A stretch of DNA of 64,000 nucleotides, from positions 1 through 64,000 of IMG/VR virus record IMGVR_UViG_3300042389_000724. The stretch is one strand, 5' to 3'. Shown one piece after another: positions 4,968-30,967 of this stretch; within the stretch, counting starts at the first letter, position 1, and each line of letters begins with the position of its first letter. A program made the position numbers and the translations under genes. The DNA comes from a virus. The notes under the pieces were generated by a model. The model made no database searches, had not been told where the DNA came from, and worked only from the letters and a program-made list of their open reading frames with translations.

Positions 4968-7316
4968 ATGGTTCCGATTCTCTCTGCCACTACCCCGTCC
5001 GCTCCCACTGCTGCGAAGTCGATGCTTGCGCGTCTGCTTGCGGCTGAAAACATTTCGGTTGTTCACCAGAACATCCCGACCGCGTTCTTTGACCTGAAGA
5101 CGCGCAGTCTGCACCTCCCGCTGTGGAGCAACGCCAGCGGTGCGCTCTACGATATGCTTGTGGGTCACGAAGTGGCTCACGCGCTGTTCACTCCTGCGAA
5201 CGGTTGGCGGGATGCGATTGATTCGGTTGCTGCCGCCACTGGCTGCGACAAGGACACTGCGAAGCAGTACCTGAACATCGTTGAGGACGCGCGCATTGAG
5301 CGCATGATCCAGGCGAAGTTCCGTGGTCTGAAGTCGGACTTCATCGGTGCGTACAAGACCCTGATGGAGCGCGAGTTCTTTGGCGATATTTCAAATCCCA
5401 ACAGCATGATCTTTGCTGACCGCTTCAACCTCCACTTCAAGTGCGGTGTCCACGCTGGCACGGTGATCCGCTTCAGCGCGGAGGAAGCCGTGTTCGTGAC
5501 CCGTGGCGAGACTGTTGCGACTTGGGCGGATGTCGTGACCCTCGCGCAGGACATGATCACCTACGCGCAGGAACAGGCGGCGAAGGCGCAGCAGCAGCAG
5601 GATCAGCAGTCTGCCGCTGCTCCCTCGGACGAAGGCGACGAAGACGGCGAAGGCGTGGATGCCGAAGGCGAGACTGGTGAGCCGCAGGACGGCGATGCCG
5701 AAGCGAACAACGGCAGCGGCAAGGGTGACGAGTCGCAGTCGGACTCGCAGGATCAGTCGCAGTCGCCTGGCGACAAGCCCTCGGATTCGCAGGAAGACGG
5801 CGAGTCTGCCGCGAAGGGCAACAACGCGAAGCGTGTCGTGAACAACGAGATGCAGAGCGCGATTGCTCCGCAGACGAATCAGAACCTTGAGAAGGCTCTT
5901 GAGCAGTTTGCGAAGACGAGTGACGGCGTGGACGAGATCGTGCGCGTGAGCGCGGACAATATTTCACAGTCGGCGCGTGTGGTGGACTTCAAGACCGTGC
6001 TTTCTGATATGCGTTCGTCTGCCATGAGCCGCTACATGGGTGCGCCTGTCCGCATCGCTGACTACACCACTGCCTCGGTCACGATGGCGACCGCGTTCAA
6101 CCGCCGCAAGGCTGCTGACAACTGGCGGCGCACTAGCGTTGCGAAGACGGGTTCGCTTGATACCCTCCGCATGAACCAGTACAAGTGGAACGAAGACATC
6201 TTCCGCCGCACCACCCGCATCGCTGACGGCAAGAACCACGGCATCGTGATTCTGCTTGACTGGTCGTCCTCCATGAGTCCGATCATGCAGTCCACCATCG
6301 GTCAGTTGTTCATCCTCGCGGACTTCTGCCGCAAGGTCGGCGTTCCGTTCGAAGTGTACGCTTTCTCGGATCAGATGTACACGAACGGCAAGGACTACCT
6401 CAGCGCGACCGCTGTGCAGGAGCGCGAAGCGGCGTGGGATGCCGATCAGAAGCGTCGCAAGAACGCCCAACTCGTCACCCGCGATGTCACGATGCTGAAC
6501 TTCCTGTCCTCGCGCATGAACGGTGCGGAGTACGAAGCCGCGAAGACCTGCCTGTGGAACTGGCGACAGATGGGTACTTGCGACCACCGCTACGCGCTCA
6601 ACGGTACGCCGACCACTGCGGCTCTCGTTGCTGCTGCTGATCTTGTGGAGTCTTTCGTGAAGCGTACCCGTGTGCAGATCGCGCACACTATCGTGCTGAC
6701 TGACGGTGAACCGACCGACTGCATTGACTTCAACATGGATGCCGTCACTGGCACTACCGCCAACAGCCGCGACTACTCCAAGCGTTCGGCTGTCGTGATC
6801 GCTGATCCGCGCACGGGTGCTACCTATGACCTGTCGCGTCTCCGCAAGTACACGAAGGACGAGTACGGCTACCGCAAGTTCGCGGGTTACTTCCAGTTCG
6901 GTTCGGAAGGCATTCCTGAAACCGTTCAGCACCCCCACGCCATGATCGCTGCGGACATCATCCGCCGCCGCACTGGCGCGAAGATCCACTGGATCGGTCT
7001 GACGCTGCACCGCAGGAGCATTGATCCCTCGCACTACGGCATGGTGTGCAAGGACAACAATTGGAAGCGTGACGGTTTCATGCGCGGCGATGTTTGGGGT
7101 TGGGACTCTGCCATCGTGGTGGATGCCGACCGCTTCCTCCGCGAGGCGAACGGCGAAGTGTCCCGCACCGCGCAGCAGTTCCTTGACAAGGCTGAAGAGC
7201 GCATGGACAATGCCCACACGAAGGGCGCACTGGCGAAGGCGTTCATGGAAACGCAGATCGCGCAGGGTTCGCTCCGCACTGTGGCGACCCACATCGGTGA
7301 ATGCCTCGCGGTGTGA
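4968..7316 (+). CDS. cobT: CobT-like von Willebrand A protein with HExxH
   Basis: 782 aa. HEVAH at residues 67-71 is a zinc-protease-like motif, and the N-terminal third has the layout of phage CobT-like peptidases. Residues about 205-300 are a Gln/Glu/Asp/Ser-rich acidic linker. The C-terminal half is a von Willebrand A domain with the metal-site motif DWSSS at 431-435 and LTDGEPTD near 576-583. Cobaltochelatase CobT and related proteins pair with a MoxR-type ATPase; the neighbour is CobS-like, so the two probably form one ATP-driven complex that inserts metal or remodels a target. I chose ATG 4968 because the promoter -10 box lies six bases upstream; the longer frame from 4818 would cross the promoter. 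GC-rich codon use. Confidence 0.85.
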   Translation: MVPILSATTPSAPTAAKSMLARLLAAENISVVHQNIPTAFFDLKTRSLHLPLWSNASGALYDMLVGHEVAHALFTPANGWRDAIDSVAAATGCDKDTAKQYLNIVEDARIERMIQAKFRGLKSDFIGAYKTLMEREFFGDISNPNSMIFADRFNLHFKCGVHAGTVIRFSAEEAVFVTRGETVATWADVVTLAQDMITYAQEQAAKAQQQQDQQSAAAPSDEGDEDGEGVDAEGETGEPQDGDAEANNGSGKGDESQSDSQDQSQSPGDKPSDSQEDGESAAKGNNAKRVVNNEMQSAIAPQTNQNLEKALEQFAKTSDGVDEIVRVSADNISQSARVVDFKTVLSDMRSSAMSRYMGAPVRIADYTTASVTMATAFNRRKAADNWRRTSVAKTGSLDTLRMNQYKWNEDIFRRTTRIADGKNHGIVILLDWSSSMSPIMQSTIGQLFILADFCRKVGVPFEVYAFSDQMYTNGKDYLSATAVQEREAAWDADQKRRKNAQLVTRDVTMLNFLSSRMNGAEYEAAKTCLWNWRQMGTCDHRYALNGTPTTAALVAAADLVESFVKRTRVQIAHTIVLTDGEPTDCIDFNMDAVTGTTANSRDYSKRSAVVIADPRTGATYDLSRLRKYTKDEYGYRKFAGYFQFGSEGIPETVQHPHAMIAADIIRRRTGAKIHWIGLTLHRRSIDPSHYGMVCKDNNWKRDGFMRGDVWGWDSAIVVDADRFLREANGEVSRTAQQFLDKAEERMDNAHTKGALAKAFMETQIAQGSLRTVATHIGECLAV

Positions 7317-14935: not shown

Positions 14936-15373
14936 ATGAGCATGGTGACTGTTTTCTACGGCATTGGTAACACGGAGTACCGCAGCGAGGCACAGGGCGG
15001 TGTGTATCAGAATTGGGCGTACACCGCTCCTCTCACTTGGCACGGCGCGTACAGTGCGCCCACTCCCACGGGCGAGGCACTGAATCTGCCCACTGTGGCG
15101 GTGTCGATTCCGCACAACCTGTTCACGGGCTTCTCCGAGGGCTATTGGGTGCATCGTGTGTTTCTTGACGGACACCTGACTGGCACATACACTTTCGTGG
15201 ATCAGCAGTTCGCGCTGCCTGTGCAGTACGATTACATTCAGAGCGTGGCTCTGCCGTTCTCTCCTGCCGAAGCCGCAGCGCGTGGCGGCGATCCGTGCGT
15301 TCCCTCGCCTGGTGGCGCGGCGGCTCTCCTGTGTGCGGCTCTGTTCACTCGTTTCCGTGCGCGAAAGGCTTGA
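14936..15373 (+). CDS. PEP-CTERM-like tail protein, 145 aa
   Basis: The C-terminus is VPSPGGAAALLCAALFTRFR and ends in basic residues. That is a Pro-containing motif, a hydrophobic helix and an Arg cluster, as in PEP-CTERM sorting signals (VPxPG variant of Planctomycetes). Exosortases recognise such tails on exported proteins. The main part is Tyr/Thr-rich and probably beta. No clear N-terminal signal peptide is visible from ATG 14936, which is unusual for this class; either the tail is only a membrane anchor or export uses another route. It lies upstream of a stomatin-like membrane protein. Confidence 0.7.
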   Translation: MSMVTVFYGIGNTEYRSEAQGGVYQNWAYTAPLTWHGAYSAPTPTGEALNLPTVAVSIPHNLFTGFSEGYWVHRVFLDGHLTGTYTFVDQQFALPVQYDYIQSVALPFSPAEAAARGGDPCVPSPGGAAALLCAALFTRFRARKA

Positions 15374-23090: not shown

Positions 23091-23129
23091 AAACTCCTGT
23101 AGAGACATAAATAGTCCTACGGGAGTTTT
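23091..23129 (+). terminator. Hairpin enclosing a late promoter
   Basis: Stem AAACTCC-T-GTAG / CTAC-G-GGAGTTT, then TTCTATTT. The 14-base loop contains CATAAATA. As RNA it could end upstream transcription; as DNA it carries the late promoter. Confidence 0.6.
23106..23113 (+). promoter_or_regulatory. T4-type late promoter box
   Basis: CATAAATA inside the loop of an inverted repeat, 53 bases before the PEP-CTERM gene at 23167. Confidence 0.7.
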
Positions 23130-23166: not shown

Positions 23167-23943
23167 ATGACACACAAGCACAGCGCAGGATCGCCGTGTG
23201 AATGTGAAAAACTAAAGAATGCCGAGCGGGAAGAACTCCGCGAGGGTCTTAAGAAATGTGTTGAAGCCCGTGAAGCCGAACGGCGCGAGCGGGAAGCCGA
23301 AAACGCAAAGCGGGCAGACGAAGCCGAGGCTGAAGTCAAAAGCCTGAAGAAAAAACTTATTGCATTCCAACTGGCTACCGCTATTGGTGGTGCAGTGATC
23401 GGGCAGGAAATGGTGAACAAGATCACCGCGAAGATCGACTCTGCCAAAGCAATGCAGGAGAAAATCACGGGCGAGGCTGCACCATCGGATCAGTCTGCTG
23501 CTCCTGCTGGCAACACCACGAAGATTGGTTGGGGTGGCGGGTGGAAGCCGTACATTCCAAAGAACAAATTCATAACAAATCAAGATTCAGGCAGCAACGG
23601 AGACATCTCTGGTGTCTGGGCAGGCAGCAGAATTTCGGTGACAGGAGAGCAGCCCTCTCCCATTGTTGAAGACTGGAGTCCGTACACCACAGACACTAAC
23701 ATCAGCAAGCCAGGCTTGCAGCAGATCACCTCTGCCGAAGTACAAGAAGTTTCCAAAAATCTCATTGCGGCGTTGAGCGAACCTCTTCCGCCGCTGTACA
23801 CGATTTCGTTTGGTGCGCCTCTGCTTCCGTTTGATGACAGCAGCGGGTTTGCGTACTCATATGCAGGAGCGGTTGTTCCCTCTCCTGCTCCCATCACTCT
23901 TTTTGCCATGAGCGGACTCATTCACAATCGCAGACGGGCATAA
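23167..23943 (+). CDS. PEP-CTERM-like protein with N-terminal coiled coil, 258 aa
   Basis: Residues 15-65 form a charged coiled coil (EREELREGLKKCVEAREAER); residues about 68-82 are hydrophobic (FQLATAIGGAVIGQE). The central part is Ser/Gly/Thr/Pro-rich. The C-terminus VPSPAPITLFAMSGLIHNRR is a PEP-CTERM-like tail: V-P-x-P, hydrophobic helix, basic end. No N-terminal signal peptide is evident, unlike the next gene. A late promoter precedes it, so it may be made with virion proteins. It might bring phage products to the host envelope, but this is inference. Confidence 0.75.
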   Translation: MTHKHSAGSPCECEKLKNAEREELREGLKKCVEAREAERREREAENAKRADEAEAEVKSLKKKLIAFQLATAIGGAVIGQEMVNKITAKIDSAKAMQEKITGEAAPSDQSAAPAGNTTKIGWGGGWKPYIPKNKFITNQDSGSNGDISGVWAGSRISVTGEQPSPIVEDWSPYTTDTNISKPGLQQITSAEVQEVSKNLIAALSEPLPPLYTISFGAPLLPFDDSSGFAYSYAGAVVPSPAPITLFAMSGLIHNRRRA

Positions 23944-23952
23944 GGAGATTAG

Positions 23953-24585
23953 ATGCAAAAGCAAATACTTTCGGCTATCGGTGCAGCAACTGTCAGCACA
24001 TCCGCTATGGGCGGATTGGTTGATGGAAGTTTTGAGAACAACGATGTGTATTACGGATACGGATTTGTACAGGGTGGAATCGACACTTCATGGCTCACTA
24101 CTGCTCCCGACAATCTCATTGAGATTTGGGGGCAATACATGGAGATCAGCGCATATAGTGGAACTCGTTGCGCGGAACTGAATGCAAACTACGCTTCCAC
24201 TCTGTATCAGACGGTGGCTCCCATCAGTGCTGGTTCTTCAGTGAACTGGCACTTTGCCCACCACGGACGGTACGGCACAGACACAATGCGTCTGACCATT
24301 ACTGATCTTGGTGCGGATCAGGATTGGGGCGGTGGGGATGACACCACCGTGTACACTAGTGAATTTTCCGCAGACAATACTGCATGGGTATTGAACTACG
24401 GTAGCGTCACATCTTTGGGAAATTCCATGCGATTTGCGTTTGAGGCTGTGAGCGCAGTGGGTGGCAACACGCAGGGCAATCTGATTGACTGGTGCGATTT
24501 CGGCGTGGGTGTTGTGCCAGCACCTGGCGCAATTTCTATTTTGATGTTTGCTGGTATTTTGGGTTGCATTAGACGCAGAGGGTGA
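23953..24585 (+). CDS. Secreted PEP-CTERM protein, DUF642-like
   Basis: 210 aa. Residues 1-20 look like a signal peptide (QKQILSAIGAATVSTSAMG). The body (LVDGSFENN, then LIEIWGQYMEISAYSGTRCA and ELNANYASTLYQTV) has the pattern of DUF642/carbohydrate-binding-like beta-sandwich proteins of bacterial surfaces. The end, VPAPGAISILMFAGILGCIR plus Arg/Gly, is a clear PEP-CTERM tail of the VPAPGA type. All parts needed for export and exosortase processing are present. It follows the other PEP-CTERM gene after nine bases. Such a protein from a phage could alter the cell surface or matrix of the host during infection. Confidence 0.82.
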   Translation: MQKQILSAIGAATVSTSAMGGLVDGSFENNDVYYGYGFVQGGIDTSWLTTAPDNLIEIWGQYMEISAYSGTRCAELNANYASTLYQTVAPISAGSSVNWHFAHHGRYGTDTMRLTITDLGADQDWGGGDDTTVYTSEFSADNTAWVLNYGSVTSLGNSMRFAFEAVSAVGGNTQGNLIDWCDFGVGVVPAPGAISILMFAGILGCIRRRG

Positions 24586-25073: not shown

Positions 25074-25079
25074 CAAACG

Positions 25080-25389
25080 GTATTGTTGATAGCGGATCGA
25101 CACACATTCAGCACGGGGGTTCGAATCCCCCCGACTCCATTCAAAGATGCGCGAACGCGAAGTGACTGCATCACTCGCCTCTTCCCGCAGTCAAGTCCTC
25201 CAGTTGCAGTGGGGGCAAATATACGGGGTCGATACGGAATCGACTGGTGTGCAGTAGAGAAGCAGGAGATACCCGAGGGGTGCATCAGACCCTCGTTAAA
25301 AACACTGGCGCAACTACAAACGCCAACAGAATGGCGATGGCGGCTTGAAGCCGTGGGGACTGATCCTCCCGCATCTGAACGGATCAAGG
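25080..25389 (+). ncRNA. ssrA: Circularly permuted (two-piece) tmRNA
   Basis: The 3' part of a normal tmRNA comes first: T arm GGGGG-TTCGAAT-CCCCC (25115-25131), acceptor CGACTCC and A discriminator (25132-25139). After a spacer of about 85 bases comes the normal 5' part: acceptor GGGGTCG (25225-25231), which pairs fully with CGACTCC and forms the G3-U70 wobble that marks alanine tRNAs, then the D-loop-like ATACGGAATCGACT. A pseudoknot stem follows (CGAGGG/CCCTCG, 25274-25295), then a tag frame ending at TGA 25346-25348 and reading ATTNANRMAMAA. GTGTG/CACAC pairing joins the two pieces. The boundaries are approximate. It would rescue stalled ribosomes and tag products for proteolysis. Confidence 0.88.
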
Positions 25390-29056: not shown

Positions 29057-29494
29057 ATGAACACGAAACAGATTCAGCGTCTGCTGCGGATTGCGTACCC
29101 CTTGTGCTTGGAGATTCCCCGTCCCAAGAAGCACATCTCCATCATTCTGTACAAGGGCAGAATTGAATCCATCGGTACGAATCAGTTGAAGACCCACCCC
29201 GAAGCCGTGAAGCACGGCTACCTGTTTGGTGAAATGCACTCCGAACTTGACGCATTTTTGAAACTCGGGGAGCGCAAGCGGGGACTCACCCTTTTCAATA
29301 TTCGCTTCAATCGGTTTGGACAGATGCGTATGTCCCGTCCGTGCTTTCGCTGTATGCCGTGGTGCGTGGGGTGCTTTGACGAGATTTGGTATACCACAGA
29401 CGAAGGTGTTTTGCTTCACGGTGACGGACTGCTACCTATAAATACAGGTAGCATCAAGGAGATTCTAAATGAAAAAGTTCACACAGTATCTTGA
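29057..29494 (+). CDS. Cytidine-deaminase-fold protein, 145 aa
   Basis: H61-S-E63 (FGEMHSELDAF) and P95-C96-x-x-C99 (SRPCFRCMPW) are the zinc-binding signature of the cytidine deaminase superfamily: the first motif gives the His ligand and catalytic Glu, the second two Cys ligands. The length suits a single deaminase domain. T4-like phages carry a dCMP deaminase (cd) in nucleotide metabolism, but this sequence lacks the usual T4 features, so the substrate (nucleotide, RNA or DNA) is open. There is no clear ribosome site, and a terminator hairpin lies just upstream; translation may be leaderless or read-through. A late promoter lies in its 3' end. Confidence 0.75.
   Translation: MNTKQIQRLLRIAYPLCLEIPRPKKHISIILYKGRIESIGTNQLKTHPEAVKHGYLFGEMHSELDAFLKLGERKRGLTLFNIRFNRFGQMRMSRPCFRCMPWCVGCFDEIWYTTDEGVLLHGDGLLPINTGSIKEILNEKVHTVS
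29437..29444 (+). promoter_or_regulatory. T4-type late promoter, perfect TATAAATA
   Basis: Exact match to the T4 late -10 box. It lies in the loop of GCTACCT/AGGTAGC (29431-29452) inside the 3' end of the deaminase gene, 25 bases before the ATG at 29469. Confidence 0.8.
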
Positions 29495-30320
29495 TACGCG
29501 CGGTCTACAGGAGGCACTGTCCCACAAGGAAGCCACCGAGGTTTCGCTTGTCGAAGCCAAACTGTCCCGCGTGTTTCAATATGTGGAAGACGACAAGAAG
29601 GACTTTGGCATCGTCAGCGCGTTCCGTGGTACGAACTCCGACAAGGAGAACAAGGCTCGTCACGAAGAACTAAAGAAGATGGTTCGTCAGATGGGCTACG
29701 GATTCATTGAACTCCGTGGTGGATACAAGGGTGATGAAGGCTATGTGGAGGAATTGAGTCTCCTCATTCCGAACATCACGAAGAAGGGTATCGTGGATCT
29801 TGGTCGCAATTTCCAACAGCACTCTGTGATGTACAAGAACGATCAGGACTTCTATTACATTGGCACAAACGAAGAGGCTGGCGTTGGCAAGGTTCTCATG
29901 CGCTTCAAGAAGGGTGCTGGACAGGACAATCTTGAACTTGCCAAGCACAAGGTCATTGACTTCTTCTCTAGCCTGAAGAAGGGACCGCACAGCGACACGA
30001 AGTTCGTGTTCAATGTAAAGGACGAAACCCCACAGCAGAAGGCACAGGGCAAGGAAGCAGAAGCCCGCGTTGCCCAACGCCACCGTCCAGGCGACATCTG
30101 GAAGACATCCAGTGGCTTGTGGGGCGGAATGGATGACCAAGGCAACTACGAGTATTTTGATGACGAACAGTCTGCTCGTAGGTTCTCAAAGAAACACCGC
30201 AAGGGATATCGCATCCAAGAGCGCGAAGAGTGGAATTTCGCAAAGGCTGCGTACTTGCGTAGAGGCGAAGACCCCAAGTGGATCACAATCTACGAGGATT
30301 CCACCGAAGACCACGACTAA
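29469..30320 (+). CDS. Putative head-packaged protein with capsid-targeting leader, 283 aa
   Basis: Starts MKKFTQYLDTRGLQEALSHK, like the capsid-targeting leaders of the left-end genes, with L-Q-E before A as a possible protease site. The body (SRVFQYVEDDKKDFGIVSAF onward) resembles a phage protein family with an F-R-G-T-N-x-x-K-E-N pattern, unknown function; the last 90 residues are basic with Trp. GGAG lies upstream, and the gene has a perfect late promoter. It overlaps the deaminase-like gene by 26 bases. A protein injected or packed with the DNA is the most likely role, by inference. Confidence 0.72.
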   Translation: MKKFTQYLDTRGLQEALSHKEATEVSLVEAKLSRVFQYVEDDKKDFGIVSAFRGTNSDKENKARHEELKKMVRQMGYGFIELRGGYKGDEGYVEELSLLIPNITKKGIVDLGRNFQQHSVMYKNDQDFYYIGTNEEAGVGKVLMRFKKGAGQDNLELAKHKVIDFFSSLKKGPHSDTKFVFNVKDETPQQKAQGKEAEARVAQRHRPGDIWKTSSGLWGGMDDQGNYEYFDDEQSARRFSKKHRKGYRIQEREEWNFAKAAYLRRGEDPKWITIYEDSTEDHD

Positions 30321-30514: not shown

Positions 30515-30967
30515 ATGAACTTTAGCACTCTCGTTTCGTCTGTCGTGGTTAGTCTCGCTCTCTCGTCTGCTGCCTCGGCGCAGTGGAGCAGCGGCGGCTT
30601 TAGTGTCGGCGTTGGTGGTTCGTACAACAAGACTACCCTGCCCAATGGTCAGTCCATCACCAACAACAACCTCAATTGGGGTGTTGGTCTTGGTGGATCG
30701 TCTTTTAACACCCCATATGGTGGCTACGGCATGGGTGGCTACGGCGGTGGTTGGGGCTACGGCATGGGTGGCTACGGCGGTGGTTGGGGTTACGGCGGTG
30801 GGTGTGGCTACGGTGGCGCGATGGTTCTGCCGTACTATGGCGGGGGCTGCTACCCGACTGTGGTTCCGTACTCGCCGTTCACCCGCTGCTACGCGACTCC
30901 CATGTACACTCCGCAGTATCCTTGCGTTCCCGCTGCGGCTCTTCCGCAGGCTCCGATTTGCTGGTAA
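30515..30967 (+). CDS. Secreted Gly/Tyr-rich repeat protein, 150 aa
   Basis: Signal peptide at residues 1-22 (LVSSVVVSLALSSAASA before QW). Residues about 68-105 are repeats of G-Y-G-M-G-G-Y-G-G-G-W; the end is Pro/Tyr/Cys-rich. Glycine/tyrosine repeats of this type occur in cell-wall and adhesive proteins of many organisms. It should be exported by the Sec route, unusual for a phage product. It is driven by a host-type promoter and GGAG site, so it may be made early, perhaps to coat or shield the infected cell. Function unknown. Confidence 0.75.
   Translation: MNFSTLVSSVVVSLALSSAASAQWSSGGFSVGVGGSYNKTTLPNGQSITNNNLNWGVGLGGSSFNTPYGGYGMGGYGGGWGYGMGGYGGGWGYGGGCGYGGAMVLPYYGGGCYPTVVPYSPFTRCYATPMYTPQYPCVPAAALPQAPICW

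Follow-up and report, generated by a model that had tools for sequence, protein, structure and literature searches.

The A-B locus and its phage

The stretch of DNA analyzed here (the window) covers 64,000 nucleotides of a 95,389-base IMG/VR virus record. On its plus strand, gene A (23167..23943, 258 aa) encodes a Cys-rich charged coil, a transmembrane segment, a variable ectodomain and a PEP-CTERM-like tail. It is followed by gene B (23953..24585), encoding a signal peptide (residues ~1-20), a beta jelly-roll ectodomain and a tail of the same design as that of A. An earlier note on this DNA had placed B exactly: its ATG is at 23953, its stop codon at 24583-24585 and its product has 210 aa. 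The Shine-Dalgarno sequence of B, TAAGGAG, overlaps the stop codon of A (TAAGGAGATTAGATG, 23941..23955, plus strand), and in many relatives the two genes themselves overlap by 1-4 bases. A third gene, C (14936..15373, plus strand), encodes a protein of 145 aa with a similar tail, VPSPGGAAALLCAALFTRFRARKA, and without a signal peptide.

The capsid, terminase, portal, head protease, sheath and baseplate proteins identify the phage as T4-like. The closest named relatives are Pelagibacter phage HTVC008M for the capsid (54%), cyanophages for the terminase (58%) and the Methylophilales phage Melnitz for the baseplate (38%). Other features of the window include a permuted (two-piece) tmRNA at 25079-25348 (plus strand; RF04321, 70.9 bits; ARAGORN tag ANRMAMAA) that is conserved in the related contig L004, an S-adenosylmethionine lyase family protein (29469-30320, plus strand; PF23780, 40.1 bits) encoded downstream of a TATAAATA box, and a Gly/Tyr-rich secreted protein (30515-30967, plus strand) with a clear signal peptide, MNFSTLVSSVVVSLALSSAASA, kept in L004 and L005, which would be another exported protein of the phage. 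Comparable tmRNAs occur in T4-like phages of aquatic habitats, Melnitz being an example.

Pattern and profile searches of IMG/VR recovered B homologues on about 30 other phage contigs, several of them T4-like. Lakes and other waters are the source of the T4-like phages with the pair. The close relatives are those of L004 (93% identity), L005 (86%), L009 (67%) and L006 (62%), with identities to window B of 52-66% in the wider family. The degenerate pattern W-x-F-x-H-[HR]-G-R-x-G-x-D returned 37 stretches, nearly all of which encode a B of 205-215 aa, two Listeria proteins apart. For alignment we used 26 representative homologues from phage contigs; one homologue (L237) is truncated. An A profile matched 29 of the 31 B-carrying contigs and, wherever a locus extends far enough upstream, A immediately precedes B. 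The pair and its distribution across more than 30 phage contigs go beyond the earlier note.

The B domain also occurs in bacterial surface proteins, as it would if the gene were bacterial and had entered the record as host DNA or through a chimeric assembly. However, the pair is embedded among phage genes on more than 30 contigs from many samples, several of which carry T4-like capsid genes; capsid homologues of this type were found in six further contigs with the cassette. In addition, the related contigs L009 (118,564 bases) and L026 come from Lake Soyang viromes, which were prepared from DNase-treated, CsCl-purified particles (PMC7553992), so that the DNA of the cassette is in all likelihood packaged in phage particles. 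The reading of the locus as bacterial DNA is therefore refuted for practical purposes, and the claim that B is encoded by a genuine phage holds.

Domains and C-terminal tails of A and B

A basic/hydrophobic leader, judged by composition, is present in all 26 aligned B proteins, in agreement with the signal peptide proposed earlier. The leaders mostly end in A-x-A-type sites, which are followed by a conserved (L/I)V(D/N)G(S/G)FE. The AlphaFold2 model of B has a moderate pLDDT of 66 (about 80-92 in the core strands) and consists of a jelly roll and a C-terminal helix at residues 193-209. Foldseek matched this model to CBM22, CBM61, CBM4, CBM16 and MAM folds (E down to 4.7e-6, TM 0.5-0.65), which supports the beta domain of the earlier note. 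The modeled domain resembles carbohydrate-binding modules, a likeness of fold only, and B is probably lectin-like. The DUF642 label given to it before was not confirmed, as none of the 26 members matched the PF04862 profile (Pfam, E<=0.5). A search for solved structures related to B by sequence gave none that was convincing. A weak match of some homologues to NF012221 (NCBIfam) was discarded as a clue to function, being far under the cut-off and confined to a beta segment within a long repeat protein.

By sequence, the relatives of B are Listeria LPXTG/SpaA proteins, Streptomyces DUF11/fimbrial proteins, and surface or pilin-like proteins of Enterococcus and Fusobacteria. The conserved motif WHFAHHGRYGTD (24247..24282, plus strand) is common to B and the Listeria surface proteins (LPXTG/SpaA). 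As these relatives are spread over differently anchored surface proteins, the B domain appears to be a surface domain that is combined with many anchors. Records named "Listeria phage LM" (OR846815, OR846807 and similar INPHARED entries) encode an LPXTG/SpaA surface protein that Listeria genomes contain as well; they seem to carry ordinary genes of the Listeria chromosome and are probably host DNA. Strong purifying selection acts on the body of B (dN/dS 0.06-0.10 against L004 and L005), and the tail is looser but still hydrophobic.

CBM- and Ig-like domains decorate many phages and the Foldseek matches include phage tail proteins, which would fit a role of B on the virion, as a lectin or decoration protein. 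Such a role is very unlikely as the signal peptide present in 26/26 homologues would export B from the cytoplasm, where virions are assembled.

Gene A has a transmembrane segment at residues 64-83 (23356..23415, plus strand), a putative signal anchor whose N-in orientation is predicted by the positive-inside rule. Its tail, VPSPAPITLFAMSGLIHNRRRA (23875..23940, plus strand), has counterparts in relatives, among them VPEPSTISVFLAQSFFNQRRRS in L254, a literal VPEPST...RRR. The A protein of most phages bears such a tail of its own, and [VI]P is kept in most of them. In the clade of L242, L244, L246, L253, L256 and L257, A measures just 100-118 aa and lacks both ectodomain and tail. In L026, which has lost B, the last 28 or so bases of A exactly match those of the L006 B gene; a deletion thus fused A to the tail of B, and a tail was retained.

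The B tail (residues 188-210, VPAPGAISILMFAGILGCIRRRG; 24514..24582, plus strand) is supported by conservation in the family and by comparison with shuffled sequence. In the alignment of 26, every tail has [VI]P ahead of a hydrophobic core, usually 12-15 residues long, and closes with basic residues; Pro189 is invariant. This tripartite arrangement was recognized in 26/26 by eye and in 25/26 by script, the exception being L234, which ends in RRRREA. A P-x-P motif, a hydrophobic stretch and a terminal basic cluster occur together in B and in most long A proteins. The combined motif was found in 10 of 1840 ORFs (five phages), every one an A, B or C gene, compared with 4 of the 50,487 ORFs in shuffled DNA and 23 of 200,000 shuffled tails. 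Across the complete record, only A, B and C had such ORF ends. The motif was defined after the tails had been seen, and family conservation rather than the motif count is therefore the main evidence.

The curated profiles gave a different picture. Window B scored 11.7 bits on PF07589 (cut-off 20.7) and had no match to TIGR02595; its 93% relative in L004 reached 15.7 on TIGR02595 (cut-off 16), and this model matched just 3 of the 26 B members at E<=0.1. We thus call the tail PEP-CTERM-like and do not file B as a member. The PEP-CTERM tail of the earlier note stands by architecture, conservation and comparison with shuffled sequences, and falls short by curated profile score. The low score is, however, weak counter-evidence, as the Pfam model likewise misses a classical-looking tail, VPSPGAFALLGMGGLLAARRRR, in an unrelated phage (L093).

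PEP-CTERM-type proteins seem to recur in such unrelated phages. The L093 protein (5529-6191) is a DUF642 protein (26.8 vs 27 bits on the DUF642 profile) encoded on the opposite strand between a lambda-type portal gene and a capsid gene, and its locus is identical in two samples (L093/L082; also L215). Proteins over the curated PEP-CTERM cut-offs are encoded in L147 (2443-3261), a phage contig with a VapE-like gene, and in L177 (4568-5389), whose contig carries 5'-3' exonuclease and tail-fibre-like genes; L189 has a relative of the L177 protein. A further contig from the tail scan, L165, was not counted as phage because it adjoins bacterial-looking genes. The relatives of gene C in L209, L210 and L211 are 54-62% identical and all three keep the tail PSPGG...RFRxRK; neither A nor B was found on these three phage contigs. 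The structure model of C (pLDDT 41) was set aside.

Expression, neighbors and host

A terminator-like hairpin with a late-promoter-like ATAAATA in its loop lies upstream of A (23093..23126, plus strand; z = -6.0), and in L005 the box is likewise found in the loop of a stable hairpin. The canonical TATAAATA taken alone was rejected as a promoter signal, not being enriched in the window phage; it is the shorter TAAATA, close to gene starts, that is enriched. It was present 15-65 bases upstream of 12 of the 106 called genes, gene A and several structural genes among them, compared with 1-3 at shifted positions. In the phage of L009 (G004), it precedes 15 of 140 genes, again including A, against 2-6 at shifted positions. 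We infer that the box is a T4-type late promoter and that A and B are expressed late.

In L242, L244, L246, L256, L257, L226 and L243, a holin gene (phrog_2359, E about 1e-10) is located directly downstream or shortly upstream of the pair. In many other loci, the pair follows two genes, one for phrog_38283, a conserved membrane protein, and one for a small lipoprotein that has a transmembrane segment. The window locus has no adjacent holin, phrog_38283 or lipoprotein gene, and no endolysin was identified near the pair when lysis-cassette neighbors were looked at. The phrog_38283 protein (L009 6386-6820 and relatives; 144-154 aa, highly conserved) is holin- or spanin-like by layout only.

The holin, lipoprotein-TM and multi-TM neighbors seen in several clades also suit an exosortase-free model in which the tails simply anchor the proteins in the membrane by their C-termini, with A and B facing the periplasm from the inner membrane, for example as accessory lysis proteins. 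The curated PEP-CTERM scores under cut-off and the similar tail of gene C, which comes without a signal peptide, would fit this as well. However, a plain anchor does not need P-x-P(G), yet all 26 B tails and the majority of A tails keep [VI]P, a hydrophobic core of 12-15 residues is short for a stable anchor, and the PEP-CTERM proteins of unrelated phages do pass curated cut-offs. We regard simple anchoring as rather unlikely.

Genes for exclusion in T4 are early genes. Superinfection exclusion, with a surface-located B masking a glycan receptor against other phages or progeny, would agree with the CBM-like fold, the secreted surface architecture and the strong purifying selection on the domain. 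The late expression suggested by the TAAATA box and the holin neighborhood speak against it. A variant in which progeny are kept from adsorbing to debris again would still be compatible. On balance, receptor masking is unlikely, slightly more so than simple anchoring.

No exosortase was found in the 36 phage records searched, including that of the window phage, so that processing of the tails would need the enzyme of the host. We predict a host with an exosortase. The earlier note named a planctomycete as an example of such a host, a suggestion that found no support. To our knowledge, VPAPGA-type tails are not lineage-specific. The best lineage model for the phage tmRNA was beta_tmRNA at 48.3 bits, below its cut-off, a faint hint that this RNA most resembles the betaproteobacterial form and no pointer to a planctomycete. 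Scans of genome contigs for a host carrying relatives of the domain yielded only a Listeria farberi surface protein. An Isosphaera plasmid does have an exosortase, with no bearing on this phage. The B proteins of L004 and L229 share 58% of their body and 94% of their tail (z 4.4 among 325 pairs), and the L229 phage has the capsid nearest to that of the window phage (78%). This single case hints that the tail goes with the phage backbone, not with the B domain, and perhaps also with the host of the phage.

Proposed role and comparison with known systems

We favor, with a probability of about 0.5, a model where A and B form a late, host-sorted and probably lectin-like surface cassette that acts around lysis. 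In T4-like phages, the two genes would be co-transcribed and translationally coupled, probably late in infection. B would be exported by Sec and fold as a jelly roll of the carbohydrate-binding type, with its short PEP-CTERM-like tail holding it in the inner membrane until a host exosortase, which is expected to recognize and cut the tail, sends it on to the surface of the cell or the exopolysaccharide. A would be held by its own transmembrane segment, and in its long form it bears a tail of this kind as well. Together, the pair may remodel or coat the glycans of the host envelope and matrix around lysis and release; the modification of the host surface by B proposed in the earlier note is a plausible inference. 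Exosortase dependence is probable, and a role around lysis or release has close to an even chance or slightly less. Counting against the favored model are the tail of gene C without the signal peptide expected of an exosortase substrate, the tailless A of the L242-type clade, the profile scores, the 36 records without exosortase and the window locus without holin. A more specific version is tentative at best: the coupled late pair would be a module dedicated to hijacking the exosortase, with tails matched to the host enzyme, going to exopolysaccharide at lysis and freeing progeny or stopping it from sticking to debris.

Exosortase sorting is common in environmental bacteria, and the roles of its substrates are known in few cases. 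If the favored model is true, a phage family that keeps such a pair would indicate that this pathway is of importance in infection and would serve as a marker of exosortase-bearing hosts. A and B would provide small single-domain exosortase substrates to study, and sorting by a host enzyme would be a new addition to the means that lytic phages have of getting proteins onto the surface of the host. Within the open-access collection searched, we found no report of phage-encoded PEP-CTERM proteins or exosortase substrates.

The substrates of the bacterial PEP-CTERM/exosortase system (EpsH, XrtA; Haft et al. 2006, PMC1569441) share with the phage proteins a signal peptide, a variable extracellular part and a C-terminal P-x-P, hydrophobic stretch and Arg cluster, and occur, as in the phages here, more than once per genome. 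Unlike them, A and B are encoded by a phage without exosortase and score below the profile cut-offs, and in A a transmembrane segment replaces the cleavable signal peptide. Choice-of-anchor (TIGR04362) proteins, DUF642 proteins and the Listeria and Streptomyces LPXTG/SpaA/DUF11 fimbrial proteins have the same kind of beta domain as B joined to different C-terminal anchors. The Listeria proteins also share W-x-F-[AS]-H-[HR]-G-R-x-G-x-D with B. Unlike all of these, B has a single domain (210 aa), and it matches neither the TIGR04362 nor the DUF642 profile. The T4-like methylophage Melnitz encodes curli pore genes proposed to act in lysis and has a permuted tmRNA (PMC9004378). It is thus, like the window phage, an aquatic T4-like phage with a permuted tmRNA and a bacterial component of envelope or matrix export; its curli pore proteins are not exosortase-type substrates, and the two are likened by kind and not by sequence. 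In floc-forming bacteria, PEP-CTERM proteins encoded by host genes act with exopolysaccharide in aggregation (PMC9850573, PMC9012009). A and B might work on the same matrix, with the opposite effect.
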